From a methanogenic archaeon mixed culture ISO4-G1 (GTDB lineage: Archaea; Thermoplasmatota; Thermoplasmata; Methanomassiliicoccales; Methanomethylophilaceae): a DNA stretch of 64,000 nucleotides. Positions 38,151 through 48,064 of this stretch are shown piece by piece. The notes beneath the pieces were generated by a model, which saw nothing but the letters and a program-made list of their open reading frames with translations, was not told the DNA's origin and did not search any database. The first letter of the stretch is position 1; every line of letters begins with the position of its first letter. The translations under genes and the position numbers were made by a program. The stretch lies in contig CP013703.1 in the NCBI GenBank assembly GCA_001563305.1, positions 496,001 to 560,000 on the forward strand, written 5' to 3'.

Positions 38151-39293
38151 TCACATACCGCTCTCGGACTCCAATTCCGATTTGACGGTTTCGAACACGA
38201 TCTTTACCATCCTGCCGAGACTGCTTTCTTGATTAATGCGGTAGTAAACATTCCTTGAGACCTTGGTTGATGAAACGACCTCTAATCTCTTCAGTTCGGC
38301 CAGACTATGTGACACGGCAGAAACGCTCATTCCGGTGATGTCAGCTAACGAACCGACGTTCATCGGGCCGTGGTTGAGTGCGAATAGTATGGTCAATCTG
38401 TTAGGGTCGGAGAATACGGTGGTGATCCCGGAGACGTTCGCTTTTTCCTTATCTATGTACTGGCTCATCATAGCGACCTCCTCTTTGCTAAGAGGTGTTT
38501 CGCAATTCTTCTTGATTCCAGAGGATAAGGATTTGTGAGCGATTATGGCGAAGTTGTAAGGCAGTATCATGGGTCCGTTCTCGCCTATGACTGTGAACGA
38601 TAGGTTGTCAAGGACCTTTACATTAATATCGCGGATGCCCAGCCCCATCAATTGTCCCAGATCCCATTCTGGGCGGACATTCTTGCTCATCGGAAGGCTC
38701 TCGGCTATGACATCAATACGACTCAGATCCACATTGTTGACATTGGTTTTGGCATGAAGATTGTTGTATTTTCCGTCCTTCATCCAAAAGTATTCCTTAC
38801 GCTTCAGATAGTCCTCATTGAATTGATGGAGGTGGTGGTTGCTGTCAAAGATCAGTAGGGATCCTCCTGGTTTCAGAAGTCTGATCCATTCCTTGTAAGC
38901 AGCGACAGGATCGCATAGCAGCCACAGACAGTCTTTGGAAACGATGATATCATATGACGATCCCTCCAGACCTGTATTCTAAACATCCCTTTGTAGGAAT
39001 TCTATTTCCAGTCCCTTCTCTTTTGAGATGTCGCGGGCATACTGGACCATCGATCCCACAAGGTCGACTCCAGTGACTTTGAAACCCCTTTGAGCGAAAA
39101 GGATCGCCATATAGCCGCATCCGGTGCCCATATCAACCACGCGCAGACCCGGTTTTAATCCTAATTCATCTATGATGAGCTCTATCTTCTGGTTGACTGC
39201 ATCTAGGCTCTTTTTTGTAGCCACATAAAATCCTAGAGACCTGTCGTCCCAGTAGTCTGTTATATCATTCGCCAGAGAATCAGTATTGTTCAT
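38151..39293 (-). CDS. SAM methyltransferase-ArsR fusion with in-frame TAG (putative pyrrolysine)
   Basis: The reading frame from the ATG at 39293 runs 380 codons if TAG at 38979-38981 (codon 105) is decoded; otherwise it ends after 104 residues. Residues ~50-68 (RVVDMGTGCGYMAILFA) are SAM motif I. Right after the TAG comes NTGLEGSSYDIIVSKDCLWL, the next methyltransferase motif, then LLKPGGSLLIFDSN. An ArsR/SmtB winged helix fills residues ~288-353 (FSDPNRLTILFALNHGP, GMSVSAVSHSLAELKR). No other stop interrupts the frame. It starts 10 nt after the ABC ATPase stop, as the last gene of the uptake operon. A nonsense-mutated gene or two separate genes are the alternatives. Confidence 0.72.
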
Positions 39294-39303
39294 AGTCACA
39301 CTT

Positions 39304-40080
39304 TCATTCAGTAATTGAGTCGTTCAAAATTACATGGGGGCGGCCGTTACGTTCAATGATGTCGACATCTACGCCATAGACGGTCCTCAGATTCTCTTTT
39401 GTCAGGATCTCATCGGTTGTCCCGTCCGCGTACAGTTTCCCATCATGCATCATGATTATCCTCTCAGCATAACGCGCTGTGATGTTGATATCATGACTGA
39501 TCATCACTACCATCGTTCCTCTTTCTTTGGGGAGTCTGGAGAGAATCTTGGTGACCTCTATCTGATGTTTGATATCCAGGTTCGAGGTCGGTTCATCGAG
39601 AAGGACCATAGGGGGATTGCGGACCAGCCCTCTCGCGAGTGCGACCTTCTGATGTTGTCCCGCGGAAAGCTCATTGAAATCTCTAAGTGCCAGATCCTCA
39701 ATTCCTAACAGATTCAAAGTACTGTAGACCGCATCGAGATCCTCATCGCTGGTGCCGAATTTGAAGTCATTCTGAAGTCCGACCATGACTGTATCGACCA
39801 CAGACAGCGGGAAGTTGTTCTCAGAAGCGTTCGGGACATATCCCAGATAGGAAGATACCTCTTTGAGACGCATACTCTGTATGTCCGTCCCGTTTATTCT
39901 GACGGTCCCCGATGTCGGCTTGAGTATACGATTCATGCAATGGATAAGGGTTGATTTACCAACACCGTTAGGCCCCATGATGCAGACGAATTCAGGTTTA
40001 TCCAAGTTGAAGCTTATGTCCTTGAGGACCAGGTTGTCGCTATTATATCCGAACGATAAATGCTCCACTTCCATCTTCAT
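39304..40080 (-). CDS. ABC transporter ATP-binding protein, BtuD/FepC type
   Basis: The protein has 258 aa. Walker A GPNGVGKST (residues ~36-44), signature LSAGQHQKVALARGL and Walker B MVLLDEPTS are all present, followed by the switch His in ISHDINI. It powers uptake through the FecCD-type permease encoded just upstream; the start overlaps a GGTGAT Shine-Dalgarno sequence at the permease stop. The substrate is a corrinoid, haem or iron-siderophore; it cannot be resolved from sequence. Confidence 0.9.
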   Translation of the reverse strand: MKMEVEHLSFGYNSDNLVLKDISFNLDKPEFVCIMGPNGVGKSTLIHCMNRILKPTSGTVRINGTDIQSMRLKEVSSYLGYVPNASENNFPLSVVDTVMVGLQNDFKFGTSDEDLDAVYSTLNLLGIEDLALRDFNELSAGQHQKVALARGLVRNPPMVLLDEPTSNLDIKHQIEVTKILSRLPKERGTMVVMISHDINITARYAERIIMMHDGKLYADGTTDEILTKENLRTVYGVDVDIIERNGRPHVILNDSITE

Positions 40081-40084
40081 AGGA

Positions 40085-41149
40085 TCACCACATGGATTTT
40101 CTCTGCTTGATGAGCAGATACAGGAAGAGCGGCCCGCCTATGAACGCGGTTATCACACCTACCGGAAGGAATGTGGGGGCAACAATCACTCTTGAGATCA
40201 GATCAGATACCATCAGCAGCACAGCTCCGAATACCGCCGAAGCTGGGATCAAATAACGGTTATCCGAACCCAGGAATATACGGCAGATATGCGGGGCCAC
40301 AAGACCGATGAAACCGATTATGCCTGTGAAGCAGACAACTGATGCGGCCATGAGGGCAATTACGAGAAGCAGTATTATCCTGAGACGATGGGCATTGATT
40401 CCCAGTGCAGTAGCGTTCTTGTCCCCTGTGATCAGGACGTTGAGTTTCTTTGACAGTGACCAGAGGATCATTGTCCCTACCACTGAGAACACCAGGATGA
40501 TCACAAAGGAGTTCCAGTTGGTGTTCGATAGATCTCCAATGGACCACTGGTATACGGCGGCAAGTGTATTGTCCGATGCGCCCACCTTTATGAGTGTCGT
40601 GCATGCGTTGAACAGATACATCACCGCGATTCCGGACAGGATCATCGTAGCCGCCGAGGTGTTCCTCATAGAGGATACGGCGATGATGACGGCCGCGGGG
40701 ATCAGCGAGAATAAGAATGCGGTCACGATGAGTCCGGCAGTTCCGGTTATGCCGCCTACCGTGAATCCCAATGCTATGGCAAGGGTGGCACCGAAAGAGG
40801 CACCAGATGAGATTCCTGTCGTGTAAGGGTCTGCCAGTGGATTCTTCATCATACTTTGCATGGCAGCGCCTGCGACACCGAGCGATATTCCAGCGACCAG
40901 ACCCGTGCATATCCTCGGCAGCCTGACTGTGAACATGGCCCAATCCACATCCGGATCGCATTTGCTTGGGTCCATGAAATGGTAGAATATGTCACGATAG
41001 GCATCCCAGGCAGAGAAGCCTGATGAACCTATGGTAGCAGCATATCCGAATACCAGAACAAGGCCGAATATGCATATCACTATGAACATTATTTTCTTCA
41101 GGATATAGCGGCGATATTCTTCGCGCCTGTCATAGGTTGTTTCTGGCAT
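40085..41149 (-). CDS. FecCD/BtuC-type ABC transporter permease
   Basis: The protein has 354 aa starting MPETTYDRREEYRRY; an upstream Met at 41188 would translate the intercistronic hairpin. About ten transmembrane helices and the family's conserved SLGVAGAAMQSMMKNPLADP motif (residues ~93-112) are visible. It forms the membrane channel of the uptake system with the ATPase downstream and the binding protein upstream. Confidence 0.9.
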   Translation of the reverse strand: MPETTYDRREEYRRYILKKIMFIVICIFGLVLVFGYAATIGSSGFSAWDAYRDIFYHFMDPSKCDPDVDWAMFTVRLPRICTGLVAGISLGVAGAAMQSMMKNPLADPYTTGISSGASFGATLAIALGFTVGGITGTAGLIVTAFLFSLIPAAVIIAVSSMRNTSAATMILSGIAVMYLFNACTTLIKVGASDNTLAAVYQWSIGDLSNTNWNSFVIILVFSVVGTMILWSLSKKLNVLITGDKNATALGINAHRLRIILLLVIALMAASVVCFTGIIGFIGLVAPHICRIFLGSDNRYLIPASAVFGAVLLMVSDLISRVIVAPTFLPVGVITAFIGGPLFLYLLIKQRKSMW

Positions 41150-41169
41150 CTGGACACACTCTTGTAGAA

Positions 41170-41186
41170 GGGGGCGCAATGCCCCC
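41170..41186 (-). other. Intercistronic hairpin between binding protein and permease
   Basis: GGGGGC/GCCCCC stem (6 bp) with loop GCAAT lies in the 45-nt gap. Such hairpins protect or attenuate the operon mRNA, allowing more binding protein than permease. Confidence 0.6.
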
Positions 41187-41194
41187 AAATTGTT

Positions 41195-42571
41195 TCAGGC
41201 GAAATAGTCCTGCACGTCCTTCAGCATGAAGAAGTTGATGCCGTCGAACTCAGAGGCATTGCGTCCGTTGTGGTACTTGTCGAGATAATCCTGGAACAGC
41301 TTCTTCACATCGAAATCGAAGAGATCAGGATAGATGCAGTTCGCCACATATGCTACGGTCAGGAAACTGGCGGCGCCCATGAAGGTTCCTTGGTTGAATC
41401 CCATGACCTTGCCGTTCTTGTACGCATTGGTGTTGTCGATGAACTTGGCATACTTGCCGTCTGTCTTGTAGAATTCCGTGTAGAGCTTGTTCTTGGTCTC
41501 ATCGAATGTAGTGTAGGTCTCAAGGAATCCGTAGTACTCGCTGAAGCAGATCCAGTCGGGGTTCATGGTCTTGACTCCTTCTGCATCGATGCTGGTACCT
41601 CCGATATATCCCTCGTCGAGGACGGATCTTGCACCGGCCAACTTGATCGCTTCGTGGACACCGCTGGTGCCGTTGGCGATCTTCGTTCCGTTGTAGGAAG
41701 CATATACAAAGGGTCTCTGGGAATCGGGTATGTTCTTGATCTTATCGTCAATCGTCTTGAAGACCTGATCGACCATATTCATGTAGTCGTATGCCTGTTT
41801 CTCGCATCCGAGCAGCCATCCAAGGGTAAGGATACCATTCGTACAGGCATCGGTGTGCTGGAGAGGAAGGCGGACAACATCGATCCCAAGGGGGGCCAGC
41901 GTCTCCTCCATTGCAGCGTCGTACCACTGCCTCTGTCCAGTGATGAAACAGTCGGGCTTGACATTGCCAGGCTTAGTGAAAACCTCGTAATCCGGATGGA
42001 ATCTGTCTCCTGCGCTTTTTGCATTGTTAGCAATGGTAGGATACCACTGAGCATACGCACCGCCATCTGCGACCTGATTGCATGCATACAGCACTTTGTC
42101 CTCAATGCCGAGGATGGAAGAGGCCTCATAGAATGCCTTGTACGTGACGCAGAGGTTGTTTCCAATCGGGTATGTACAGGCAGCAACGACGCCGTCACAG
42201 TCATAGTACTTGACCTGGATTCCGTTTCTGCGGTCCACCATGTCCTTTACCAGATTCACATCTGCAAGATCGATTTTTCCGTCGCAGTTAGCGTCGGCGA
42301 AGGATCTCTTAACGAGGCCTCCACCATATGTTACATAACAATCAAAGTATTCTGCCGTAGCTTCGCCGGATATTATTGCCTCGATCGCTTCCACGTCTCT
42401 GTTGTCGATATAGTCGTCATGATTCGCGTTACCGAAAATGGTGAGACGACCATCAACATTGGTGCTAGGGCCGTAGTTGGATCCTTTATCGCTCATCATG
42501 ACAAAAGCAACACACGCTACAGCTACAATGACTGCAACTGCGATGATTGCGTAAATTGTCTTTTGATTCAT
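41195..42571 (-). CDS. Membrane-anchored substrate-binding protein with dockerin-like repeats
   Basis: The protein has 458 aa. The N-terminal helix (residues 5-26) anchors it outside the cell. Residues ~47-68 and ~91-113 are two dockerin/EF-hand-like repeats (GNANHDDYIDNRDVEAIEAI; ADANCDGKIDLADVNLVKDM) with the Asp/Asn-rich calcium loops. The rest is a BtuF/FepB-type class III binding fold (PDCFITGQRQWYD, GTSGVHEAIKLAGARSVLD, MNPDWICFSEY). It delivers corrinoid, haem or siderophore to the permease. Heads the operon; operator-like dyads lie upstream. Confidence 0.85.
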   Translation of the reverse strand: MNQKTIYAIIAVAVIVAVACVAFVMMSDKGSNYGPSTNVDGRLTIFGNANHDDYIDNRDVEAIEAIISGEATAEYFDCYVTYGGGLVKRSFADANCDGKIDLADVNLVKDMVDRRNGIQVKYYDCDGVVAACTYPIGNNLCVTYKAFYEASSILGIEDKVLYACNQVADGGAYAQWYPTIANNAKSAGDRFHPDYEVFTKPGNVKPDCFITGQRQWYDAAMEETLAPLGIDVVRLPLQHTDACTNGILTLGWLLGCEKQAYDYMNMVDQVFKTIDDKIKNIPDSQRPFVYASYNGTKIANGTSGVHEAIKLAGARSVLDEGYIGGTSIDAEGVKTMNPDWICFSEYYGFLETYTTFDETKNKLYTEFYKTDGKYAKFIDNTNAYKNGKVMGFNQGTFMGAASFLTVAYVANCIYPDLFDFDVKKLFQDYLDKYHNGRNASEFDGINFFMLKDVQDYFA

Positions 42572-42647
42572 CCTTTATCACTTGGATTATACATCCAATG
42601 AACAAAGATTATCATTCCATATTTAAAAGTTGATGGTATGGATACAA

Positions 42648-44168: not shown

Positions 44169-47100
44169 TCACTTGTCGGTGATCTCCTCGATCCTCTCCT
44201 CGGCCTCCATGTACATCTCCTTGAGGAACTCCTGATACTCCTCGGTGGCATCCCAGAGCCCTCTCCTTATCGCCTCGAAGAGGGTATTCAGGATGTTCAT
44301 GACCGCATAGGGGTTGACGTCGTTCATCCATTCGTGGACGTCCTTGTCCCTGAGGTAGGTGTCCGTGAGGGCCTCGTACATCCAGTCCTCCGCGATATCG
44401 GATGTGGCGCCCCACGCCATGGTGTACTCCGTGATCTTTGCCATCTCGGATGCGCCGCGGTATCCGTGCTCCATGAGGCCGCTGTTGAACTTGGGGTTGG
44501 TGACCTTGGACCTGAACAGGAAGCGCAGCTCCTCCTGGGTGCTGCGGATCTTGGTCTTGCTGGGATCGGAGTTGTCGCCCATGTAGGTGACCGCATCCTT
44601 CTGGCCGTAGGTCCTGACGAAGGCGTTCATGCCTCCGAGATACTGGTAGACGTCGTCGATGTCCAGTATGTCGAACTCCCTGGAGGGGGCGTTCTTGATG
44701 GTCGCTGTGACCTTCCCGAAGCGTCTCATGAACTCCCTCTTCATCGGCCTGCCGTAGTTGCCCTTGACGTAGCCGAAGCTGCTGAGGTCCGCGTATATGT
44801 CCGCCAGGTCCTTGGTCTCGTCCCATTTGCCGGACTCTATCAGGTTCCCTACACCGTTTCCGTAGGTTCCCAAAGCTTCTCCGAATATCCTCACGGAGTT
44901 CCTCTCACGCGCCTCGTCACGGCTCATGCCGCTGAGTATATCCTCGGCGATGTCCTGCCTGAGGTTCGCTGCCAATGCGTTGTCCTCATCGGATTCGTCC
45001 AGTTCCGCCACCATCTTGATCGCATCGTCCAGGAGGTCTATGGTCGCGGGGAACGTATCCCTGAACAGGCCGGTTATGTTTATGGTGACGTCCACACGGG
45101 GCCTTCCCAGTTCCTTCACGGGGACAATCTCCAGGTCGGTGACCTTCCCTCCGATCTTCGACCACACCGGTCTGAGACCCAGCAGCCACAGGACGTAGGA
45201 AGCGTCGTCCCCGCCTGTGGTCATCATGTCGGTGGCCCAGATCACAATTCCGATCTCGCGCGGATACGTTCCCTTGTCCTCCACGTACCTCTCGATCATC
45301 TGGTCCGCCATGCGCTTTCCGATCTCCCAAGATGTCTTGGTGGGCACGCATTCGGGATCCAGGGAGTAGAAGTTCCTCCCCATCGGGAGTATGTCTGCGT
45401 TGCCGCGGATGGGGGAGCCGGACGGTCCCGGGATGACGAACCTGCCGTCGGTCCCTTCCATCATGTGGTCCAGCTCGTAGCTCATCCTCCTGACGTTCGG
45501 TATGATGAAGCCGCATGTGTATTCGACCGATCTCCTCAGGTCGTCGCTGACATGTCCGAACCTCTCGTTGAGATAGTCCAATGACTTGGATACGTCGCAG
45601 TCGAACTCGGTCCTGATCCTCGTGATGAAATCCTGTTCGTCGGCATCGACGTCCCTGACTATCTCGGAGTTCAGCCTTCCGTCCGCACCGATCCCGGAGG
45701 GATCCTCTATCGCCTTCTGTATGTCCACGCCGATGTTCTCGGCGAAGGCGTCCCTGAGCGATCTTACATCCCCGTTGTCCAGCCTGGTGAGGGAGTACAC
45801 CATCTCGTCGAAATGGTGGTCCTTCGGGACCCTGCCGATGATGTGCATGTCCGCCCTGATGAGCGCCTCCTCCACCTCCTCCATGTACCGGTGCAGTTCG
45901 ATTATGTGATCAGCGAAACCCTCCGGACCGGGGTCGTTCTCTCCGTCCAGTCCCAGGTCCTTCAGCAGGTTGTTGGCCTTGACGGCCTCGTATATCTGGT
46001 TCACGATCCCCTTGACAGTGGGCTCAGGAGCCGTCCCTCTGAGCCTGAAATAATCCTGCATCTGGACCTCCACTTCGTTCAGGTTGCCGTGGATGTCGCC
46101 TCTGGCCATGGCCGGGGGCATGTGACCGATGAGGACAGATTCCGATCTCCTCTTCGCCTGGACTCCCTCGCCGGGGTCGTTGATCGTGTAGGGATAGATG
46201 TTGGGAATTGCGTCCAGGACGTAATCCGGGTCGCATTTCTCGGAGAGTCCGACGTTCAAGCCGGGGAGCCATTCCAATGTCCCGTGGGTACCCATGTGGT
46301 ATATCATGTCGGCCTTGAACACGTTCTTGATCCACCAGTAGTAGGCGTTGTACTGGTGCTGCGTGAAGAGCAGCGGGTCGTGGGTGTTCTGGTCCTGCTG
46401 GTCCGCCCATCCCCTGAGGGGCTGGTAGCATACGAATACGTTCCCCTTCATGAGGCCGGGGATGACTATCTTCCCGCTGTCGGTCATGATCTCGCCGACT
46501 GGTTCGCCCCACTTCTCCTCGGTCATCCTGCGGTCCCATTCGGGGATCTGCATGTAGTCCTTCTCGTAATCTTTCTTCGACACCAGGTCCACGGCCTTCT
46601 CGCGGACCGACTGTATGGACTGGTTGTCGAGGTCGTTGGTGACGTTATCCAGGATCTCCTCTATCAGCTCGCGCCCGTCCGCAGGACAGTTCTTCACCTT
46701 GTATCCGAGCGAATCCAGTCTCTTCAGGATGTCGGATACGCTCTCCACCGTGTCCAGACCGGCGGCGGCACCGATCATCCCCGAGTTGGGCCTGGACTGC
46801 CACATCATGACGGCCACTCTCCTCTCGGAAACTGGTTTCCGCCTCAGGCTCCCCCAGGCCTTAGCCATGCGGCAGAGGTGGTCCATCCTTTCATGGATGG
46901 GTATGGATTTCTTCGGGTTCTCCTTGGTGCTGTACGTTATCGGCACGCCCATGATGTCTCCGTCCAGTTCCGGATAGATGATATTGGACGTGAAATCGGT
47001 CTTCTTCATGCCGACCTTCTCCAGCTCGAAGTCGAGGAATGCACAGTGGTAGGACATGCCGAATATGATCGGAACGTCCACCAGCCTGCGGAAGCAGCTC

Positions 47101-47924
47101 TCCTCGTCGATGTTTGGTATGTTCCCGTCCGCACGGTTGGTGTTGGCATAGCCGGTCAGCGAGATCATCACGTCGATGATCGGCCTCCCGTTTTTGTTGA
47201 AGTATGTCCTGAACACCTCCTCGGTCCCGCCTGGGCGTCTCATGGCGTCGAAGGAGCAGACGGCGGCTATCGACTGCATCCCCATGGATTCGAGCTTCTG
47301 GATCAGCACATCAAGGAACTCATCATCCCCGTATGACATCTGACCGTTGGCGAGCATGATCCCGACGGTTATCCTCTCCGGATCCAGGGAATCGAGCGCC
47401 TTCCGCACGTCGGAGCATTCCTTGCCTTTCGCATACAGATAGTGGTCCGGATACATGACGGGTTCTCCCGGTTTTCTGTCGGTAAGACCGAAGTGCCAGC
47501 ATAACCACCATATGAACAGGAAGTCGTTCTCCGGGGACTTGCACAAGTTGTAACGGGCCATCTCCTTGAGGTCCTCGTCCGTACCGGAGAACAGATCTGA
47601 TGTCATCATGTCCACGTCTATGTTTCCGGAGACAGGTGCGACGAACGCATCAGTCCTTTTCAGGACGTCGGTGTAGCGGTCGAACTTTTTGAATTTCCAA
47701 GGGTCACCCATGCATCTGATGTAGACGATATCGCAGTGCATGGTCCGTCTGCAGAGCTCGTCGTATCTGAGGGGATCCTCTTCGCATTCTTCCTTGGTGA
47801 AACCGACGAAATCAATCTTCACACCGAGTTCATCCTCGACCTTCCTGCATGCCTCACCTAATTGCTTCGGTGTCGTGAATAGAACGGACAGATACGTGAT
47901 TTTGAAGGTCTTGCCGTTAGACAT
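44169..47924 (-). CDS. cobN: Cobaltochelatase subunit CobN (CobN/BchH family)
   Basis: The protein has 1,251 aa, the usual length of CobN. Hallmarks include HMGTHGTLEWLPGLNVGLSE (residues ~542-561), QHQYNAYYWWIKNVFKAD, WATDMMTTGGDDASYVLWLLG and a C-terminal region ending EEYQEFLKEMYMEAEERI. It inserts cobalt into the corrin ring with ATP; ChlI/ChlD-like partners are not in the window. Methylotrophic methanogens need large amounts of corrinoid, so this gene near a BtuFCD-type uptake operon is consistent. A magnesium- or nickel-chelatase role is less likely. Confidence 0.88.
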   Translation of the reverse strand: MSNGKTFKITYLSVLFTTPKQLGEACRKVEDELGVKIDFVGFTKEECEEDPLRYDELCRRTMHCDIVYIRCMGDPWKFKKFDRYTDVLKRTDAFVAPVSGNIDVDMMTSDLFSGTDEDLKEMARYNLCKSPENDFLFIWWLCWHFGLTDRKPGEPVMYPDHYLYAKGKECSDVRKALDSLDPERITVGIMLANGQMSYGDDEFLDVLIQKLESMGMQSIAAVCSFDAMRRPGGTEEVFRTYFNKNGRPIIDVMISLTGYANTNRADGNIPNIDEESCFRRLVDVPIIFGMSYHCAFLDFELEKVGMKKTDFTSNIIYPELDGDIMGVPITYSTKENPKKSIPIHERMDHLCRMAKAWGSLRRKPVSERRVAVMMWQSRPNSGMIGAAAGLDTVESVSDILKRLDSLGYKVKNCPADGRELIEEILDNVTNDLDNQSIQSVREKAVDLVSKKDYEKDYMQIPEWDRRMTEEKWGEPVGEIMTDSGKIVIPGLMKGNVFVCYQPLRGWADQQDQNTHDPLLFTQHQYNAYYWWIKNVFKADMIYHMGTHGTLEWLPGLNVGLSEKCDPDYVLDAIPNIYPYTINDPGEGVQAKRRSESVLIGHMPPAMARGDIHGNLNEVEVQMQDYFRLRGTAPEPTVKGIVNQIYEAVKANNLLKDLGLDGENDPGPEGFADHIIELHRYMEEVEEALIRADMHIIGRVPKDHHFDEMVYSLTRLDNGDVRSLRDAFAENIGVDIQKAIEDPSGIGADGRLNSEIVRDVDADEQDFITRIRTEFDCDVSKSLDYLNERFGHVSDDLRRSVEYTCGFIIPNVRRMSYELDHMMEGTDGRFVIPGPSGSPIRGNADILPMGRNFYSLDPECVPTKTSWEIGKRMADQMIERYVEDKGTYPREIGIVIWATDMMTTGGDDASYVLWLLGLRPVWSKIGGKVTDLEIVPVKELGRPRVDVTINITGLFRDTFPATIDLLDDAIKMVAELDESDEDNALAANLRQDIAEDILSGMSRDEARERNSVRIFGEALGTYGNGVGNLIESGKWDETKDLADIYADLSSFGYVKGNYGRPMKREFMRRFGKVTATIKNAPSREFDILDIDDVYQYLGGMNAFVRTYGQKDAVTYMGDNSDPSKTKIRSTQEELRFLFRSKVTNPKFNSGLMEHGYRGASEMAKITEYTMAWGATSDIAEDWMYEALTDTYLRDKDVHEWMNDVNPYAVMNILNTLFEAIRRGLWDATEEYQEFLKEMYMEAEERIEEITDK

Positions 47925-48064
47925 CTTGGCAGCTCCTGGGATGTATAATCCAAGACAGTATTGGGTTAAAGGAGTTTGTATGACAAGGGATAAAGTGAAC
48001 TGGATTTCGAATCGGATTCCGGATAAGAATGGTGATCCCGGTGCTCCCGCACCGGTAATGGATT

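Follow-up and report, generated by a model that had tools for sequence, protein, structure and literature searches.

A conserved in-frame TAG, probably read as pyrrolysine, in a methyltransferase-ArsR regulator encoded at the end of an uptake operon of the methanogenic archaeon ISO4-G1

Pyrrolysine is viewed as a residue made for the methylamine methyltransferases, and its occurrence elsewhere as neutral drift. An archaeal genetic code in which every TAG is read as pyrrolysine has reportedly been found recently. In 'Ca. M. alvus', TAG accounts for 1.6% of stops and 16 additional pyrrolysine (Pyl) proteins have been predicted; among these, an Rv0623-like transcription factor is listed together with a putative methyltransferase, and for half of the cases homologues without the amber codon were reported (PMC4153887). 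The genome of ISO4-H5 contains 46 amber-containing genes (PMC5011839), while in M. acetivorans a TetR-family regulator is annotated with an in-frame UAG (PMC3639795). Here we describe an in-frame TAG in a regulator gene of ISO4-G1, located in a window of 64,000 nucleotides (the whole stretch of DNA that was analysed). An earlier note on this window held that a pyrrolysine-containing regulator would be new, which is too strong, as the TetR-family regulator and the Rv0623-like factor had been listed before. Like the former, the ISO4-G1 protein is a transcription regulator whose frame contains a UAG, but the M. acetivorans protein belongs to another regulator family and its UAG is annotated in that organism only. 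With 'Ca. M. alvus' and ISO4-H5, ISO4-G1 shares TAG-containing genes beyond the methylamine methyltransferases, a pyl cassette and a low number of TAG stops; however, where half of the M. alvus proteins have amber-free homologues, the regulator has a 50%-identical homologue with TAG at the same site. In comparison with the open-licence papers, what is new is that a TAG is conserved by site in a regulator family of this kind, and that this occurred independently on two occasions.

The regulator gene and its parts are located as follows:
38151..39293, minus strand: methyltransferase-ArsR regulator gene (start ATG at 39293, TAG read through, stop TGA at 38151-38153)
38979..38981, minus strand: in-frame TAG (codon 105 from the ATG, 107 from the GTG)
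38808..39155, minus strand: class I SAM-dependent methyltransferase domain (residues 49-164, GTG numbering; PF13847, PF08241, PF13649)
38268..38408, minus strand: ArsR-type winged helix-turn-helix (residues 298-344, GTG numbering; PF01022, NF033788, SmtB/CzrA matches)

The frame is 1,143 nt long, is interrupted only by the TAG at 38979-38981 and stays open for 275 codons beyond it; a GTG at 39299 is an alternative start. The earlier note is exact as to this frame, the coordinates given for it and its one TAG at codon 105. It also placed the TAG correctly between two consecutive SAM-methyltransferase motifs, the codon being situated after the motif-II aspartate (Asp105, GTG numbering) and before the strand YDIIVSKD, and the open codons do continue, as it claimed, through an ArsR winged helix recognised by HTH_5 above the Pfam cut-off. 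In the read-through protein, the methyltransferase and HTH_5 matches are both far above the Pfam cut-offs (48.7 bits against a cut-off of 22 for PF01022), and the ArsR/SmtB model NF033788 scores 63 against a cut-off of 55. The SAM motif DMGTGCG is intact. A Foldseek search with the AlphaFold2 model of the regulator gives class I methyltransferases as its close matches. From the sequence motifs and the known class I folds, the pyrrolysine is predicted to lie two residues past the motif-II aspartate, near the adenine of the cofactor and thus beside the SAM site.

The protein thus shares with the ArsR/SmtB repressors a winged helix scoring above the family cut-offs, but differs from them in being a fusion with a methyltransferase domain. 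The winged-helix part contains no cysteine in its translation and consequently no alpha-3 Cys metal site, and identification as a metal-sensing ArsR/SmtB protein was rejected on this basis. A methylamine:corrinoid methyltransferase was likewise rejected, since the MtmB, MtbB and MttB domains are all absent from the Pfam search of the regulator, as was a CpaM corrinoid-protein-associated methyltransferase, for which NF043040 reaches 56.9 bits against a cut-off of 180.

The genome of ISO4-G1 (1.59 Mb in one contig) contains a complete pylTSBCD cluster at about 657602-661543 (locus L003, 5603-9544), in which tRNA-Pyl(CTA) is followed by pylS, pylB, pylC and pylD, each scoring over its curated cut-off. 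All the genes that the earlier note proposed to look for are therefore present. All 273 residues of PylS are identical to those of PDB entry 8ifj, which we take to be the PylRS of ISO4-G1. The published structure of the ISO4-G1 PylRS is that of a 273-residue protein (PMC10094482).

For stop codon usage, 20 stretches were sampled that add up to 438 kb, or about 27% of the genome. Strong open reading frames in this sample end in 259 TGA, 19 TAA and 9 TAG codons; eight of the nine ending in TAG run on in frame for 69-296 codons with a positive coding score, and the remaining one extends for five codons. Reading through TAG completes MtmB, two MttB-like proteins, MtbB and a UvrD-type helicase, and internal TAGs are also found in radical SAM and S15 peptidase genes. 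Two paralogous UvrD-type helicase genes are present, one with two in-frame TAGs (716111-719062, L050) and one with a single TAG (813250-816087). In the window, genes scoring above 20 end in 35 TGA, 4 TAA and no TAG codons, so the statement of the earlier note that no intact gene stops at TAG stands for the confident genes, the exceptions being two weak, probably spurious reading frames. In this sample, with internal TAGs in conserved genes and few TAG stops, TAG is, as judged from the sequence, essentially a sense codon. The ISO4-G1 genome resembles the all-pyrrolysine archaeal code in that TAG is nearly always sense, but the ISO4-G1 case rests on sequence, with about 27% of the genome sampled.

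Together with the conservation of the TAG without decay described below, the tRNA-Pyl and pylSBCD genes and the near absence of TAG stops indicate that UAG very probably stands for pyrrolysine here, as the earlier note had supposed, and that pyrrolysine is very probably inserted at UAG 105 of the regulator. An almost complete assignment of TAG to pyrrolysine would require no special signal at this codon. An Rfam search of the region after the TAG (E<=5) gave no match to a PYLIS-type element or any other family, and the RNA folding energies there are close to those of shuffled sequences (z of 0.26 and -0.75), with no stable stem-loop; PYLIS-dependent recoding was rejected on these grounds.

Relatives of the regulator were sought with an alignment query in 31 genomes from the genus and 147 from the order; an earlier single-protein query against named genomes had found none. 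At the threshold used, full-length relatives are restricted to two genera. The closest, on contig JAFVET010000082.1 (locus L089), is 50% identical and comes from G010, an archaeon of the Methanomethylophilaceae whose genome was assembled from a roe deer rumen metagenome. It has a TAG at the same codon as the ISO4-G1 regulator, with different flanking nucleotides, and the identity is equal on both sides of it (52 of 97 residues upstream and 133 of 271 downstream), so that homologous coding sequence is found both before and after the in-frame TAG. Loss of the amber codon in close orthologues together with downstream decay, named by the earlier note as contrary to its reading, is not what this relative displays: the TAG is kept and there is no decay. 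The 275 open codons, the equal identity on either side and the shared TAG show the frame to be no product of chance. Retention of TAG in so distant a relative hints at a useful role for the codon.

Another two relatives, with 47% identity to each other, also have a TAG in common:
G011, contig 41, 42458-43522 (L104)
G012, contig 35, 4282-5319 (L105)

In this pair the TAG is located at a different site, in the PGG turn that precedes the fifth strand (PGG-TAG). These two methyltransferase-ArsR regulators also adjoin FecCD-type uptake genes. The tree paths amount to 1.17 substitutions per column for the ISO4-G1/G010 pair and 1.36 for the second pair, each with 100/100 support. Apart from the TAGs, the two columns are hypervariable, residues matching in 6 of 48 and 4 of 48 pairs of at least 40% identity, pairs that are not independent of each other. 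Each group with a conserved TAG consists of two sequences, two plus two among roughly two dozen full-length members. The conservation of TAG at a fixed codon within each pair is as in MtmB, MtbB and MttB, but these are other families with Pfam models of their own, in which TAG is near universal. In mtmB, used as positive control, TAG is present in all 57 of the matches listed.

Control TAG sites from other ISO4-G1 genes behave differently. The radical SAM TAG is absent in 11 aligned orthologues, and among 28 orthologues of 71-87% identity any TAG occurs only in G021, alongside TGA and TAA. The S15 peptidase TAG is absent in three orthologues, the two helicase TAGs in 11 aligned orthologues and the zinc-ribbon TAG in three distant relatives. 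TAG is thus kept in both diverged regulator pairs as against five unshared control sites, a comparison of few sequences. A counter-example is one helicase column with TAG in three species, which shows that shared TAGs are possible outside the regulator too. As TAG is kept at two otherwise variable columns while the control TAGs are unshared, the pyrrolysine codon of the regulator has probably been retained through selection.

The main competing explanation is that a CAG, GAG or AAG codon drifted to TAG, with pyrrolysine inserted but having no special role and the TAG of G010 merely inherited. The other TAGs of the genome do look neutral, the radical SAM and S15 peptidase orthologues having Gln or Glu at the ISO4-G1 TAG position, and a title cited in PMC2933860 speaks of a neutral appearance of pyrrolysine in tRNA-His guanylyltransferase. 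The regulator gene is also AT-rich (46.6% GC against 55% for the genome, with weak codon scores), so TAG would be reached more readily through mutation. Passive inheritance would nevertheless have to span paths of 1.17 and of 1.36 substitutions per column, at positions that are both otherwise variable, when the control sites are unshared even with orthologues of up to 87% identity, and we regard it as rather unlikely.

The genes around the regulator, and the palindromes at their promoters, are:
39304..40080, minus strand: ATPase of an ABC transporter, separated by 4-10 bp from the regulator gene downstream
40085..41188, minus strand: FecCD/BtuC-type permease (PF01032)
41195..42571, minus strand: substrate-binding protein (Peripla_BP_2), dockerin-like in its N-terminal part
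42582..42598, minus strand: candidate operator TTGGATGTATAATCCAA, between the TATA-like box TTTAAATA and the start of the substrate-binding protein gene
44169..47924, minus strand: CobN/magnesium-chelatase-like gene (PF02514), preceding the operon on the same strand
47937..47953, plus strand: second candidate operator, with a single mismatch, immediately upstream of the CobN-like gene

The regulator is the last gene of an operon in which the substrate-binding protein, the permease and the ATPase precede it with gaps of a few bases, and its proposed link to an uptake operon is borne out by this arrangement. Other minus-strand genes precede the operon, coding for a flavodoxin-like reductase, for a small membrane protein and for the CobN-like chelatase. 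Similar substrate-binding protein genes adjoin family members in loci L089, L093, L096, L104 and L105. Besides the regulator, a stand-alone methyltransferase-like gene is located between the substrate-binding protein and permease genes in L093 (2175-2993) and L096 (3580-4395), and genes of that kind recur in the uptake operons of several relatives.

The palindrome TTGGAT-N5-ATCCAA is found at the promoters of the operon. When the substrate-binding protein promoters of ISO4-G1 and G010 are compared, both have the TTTAAATA box and, near the start codon, TTGGAT(G/A)TATAATCCAA. Allowing one mismatch, the palindrome is present in 13 of 17 loci around family members, exact placement having been checked for some, and at 14 sites in the ISO4-G1 genome, whereas the reversed pattern, taken as control, has none there. 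The genomic sites include 945518, 1005261, 1244037, 1327716 and 1560861, plus one-mismatch sites; several adjoin further FecCD, CobN-like, substrate-binding protein, NifH/NifD-like, NiFe-hydrogenase and ribonucleotide-reductase genes. In L215 (648-2822) a fused NifH-like and nitrogenase-component-1-like protein has the palindrome at its start. The palindrome occurs in 29 of the 31 genomes of the genus, some of which have no close full-length homologue of the regulator, so another protein may be its binder; its recurrence in the genus close to genes of metal/tetrapyrrole type possibly reflects a genus-wide metal or corrinoid regulon.

The earlier note proposed that the UAG acts as a switch, full-length repressor being made only when pyrrolysine is abundant and otherwise a 104-residue fragment that lacks the DNA-binding domain, which would couple uptake to methylamines. 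A UAG in an M. acetivorans reporter acted both as stop and as sense codon (PMC2933860), and in both groups the TAG is situated upstream of the DNA-binding domain at differing sites, so the codon rather than its position could be selected. However, no direct support was obtained for the coupling: the domain searches revealed nothing specific to methylamines among the operon genes, RNA structure past the TAG is not unusual, and the rarity of TAG stops, together with the helicase, radical SAM and peptidase genes, ordinary genes that also need UAG decoding, implies that decoding is probably constant. Such a switch therefore appears very improbable. That the TAG is a nonsense mutation in a pseudogene or a sequencing error, the default reading of a stop within a frame, was rejected as scarcely credible, as an independent metagenome assembly has TAG at the same codon, the downstream part has not decayed and the genome carries the pyl genes.

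Taken as a whole, the data are best explained, we believe with moderate confidence, by an intact gene for a full-length, pyrrolysine-containing local repressor in which the pyrrolysine is kept by selection. UAG 105 would be decoded as pyrrolysine in routine translation, giving a single full-length protein in which the methyltransferase-like domain serves as sensor for the ArsR DNA-binding domain fused to it. The regulator would most likely repress the FecCD-type uptake operon whose end encodes it, perhaps by binding the palindrome between the TATA box and the start codon, and binding of SAM or of an imported metallo-compound to the methyltransferase domain may release it. The pyrrolysine would lie beside the cofactor site and probably be maintained by selection. 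More tentatively, and with appreciable doubt, pyrrolysine may be a functional, selected residue acquired twice at different sites of the methyltransferase domain, where its ring or the dependence on UAG decoding aids sensing.

Two regulator groups that each keep a pyrrolysine codon at a fixed site down to about 50% identity make a possible second use of pyrrolysine directly testable. The PylRS matching the ISO4-G1 genome is an existing laboratory tool, and a sequenced strain exists for the related ISO4-H5. Should the electrophilic ring of pyrrolysine, or the dependence on UAG decoding, indeed take part in sensing the signal, this would be the first regulatory, non-metabolic pyrrolysine.
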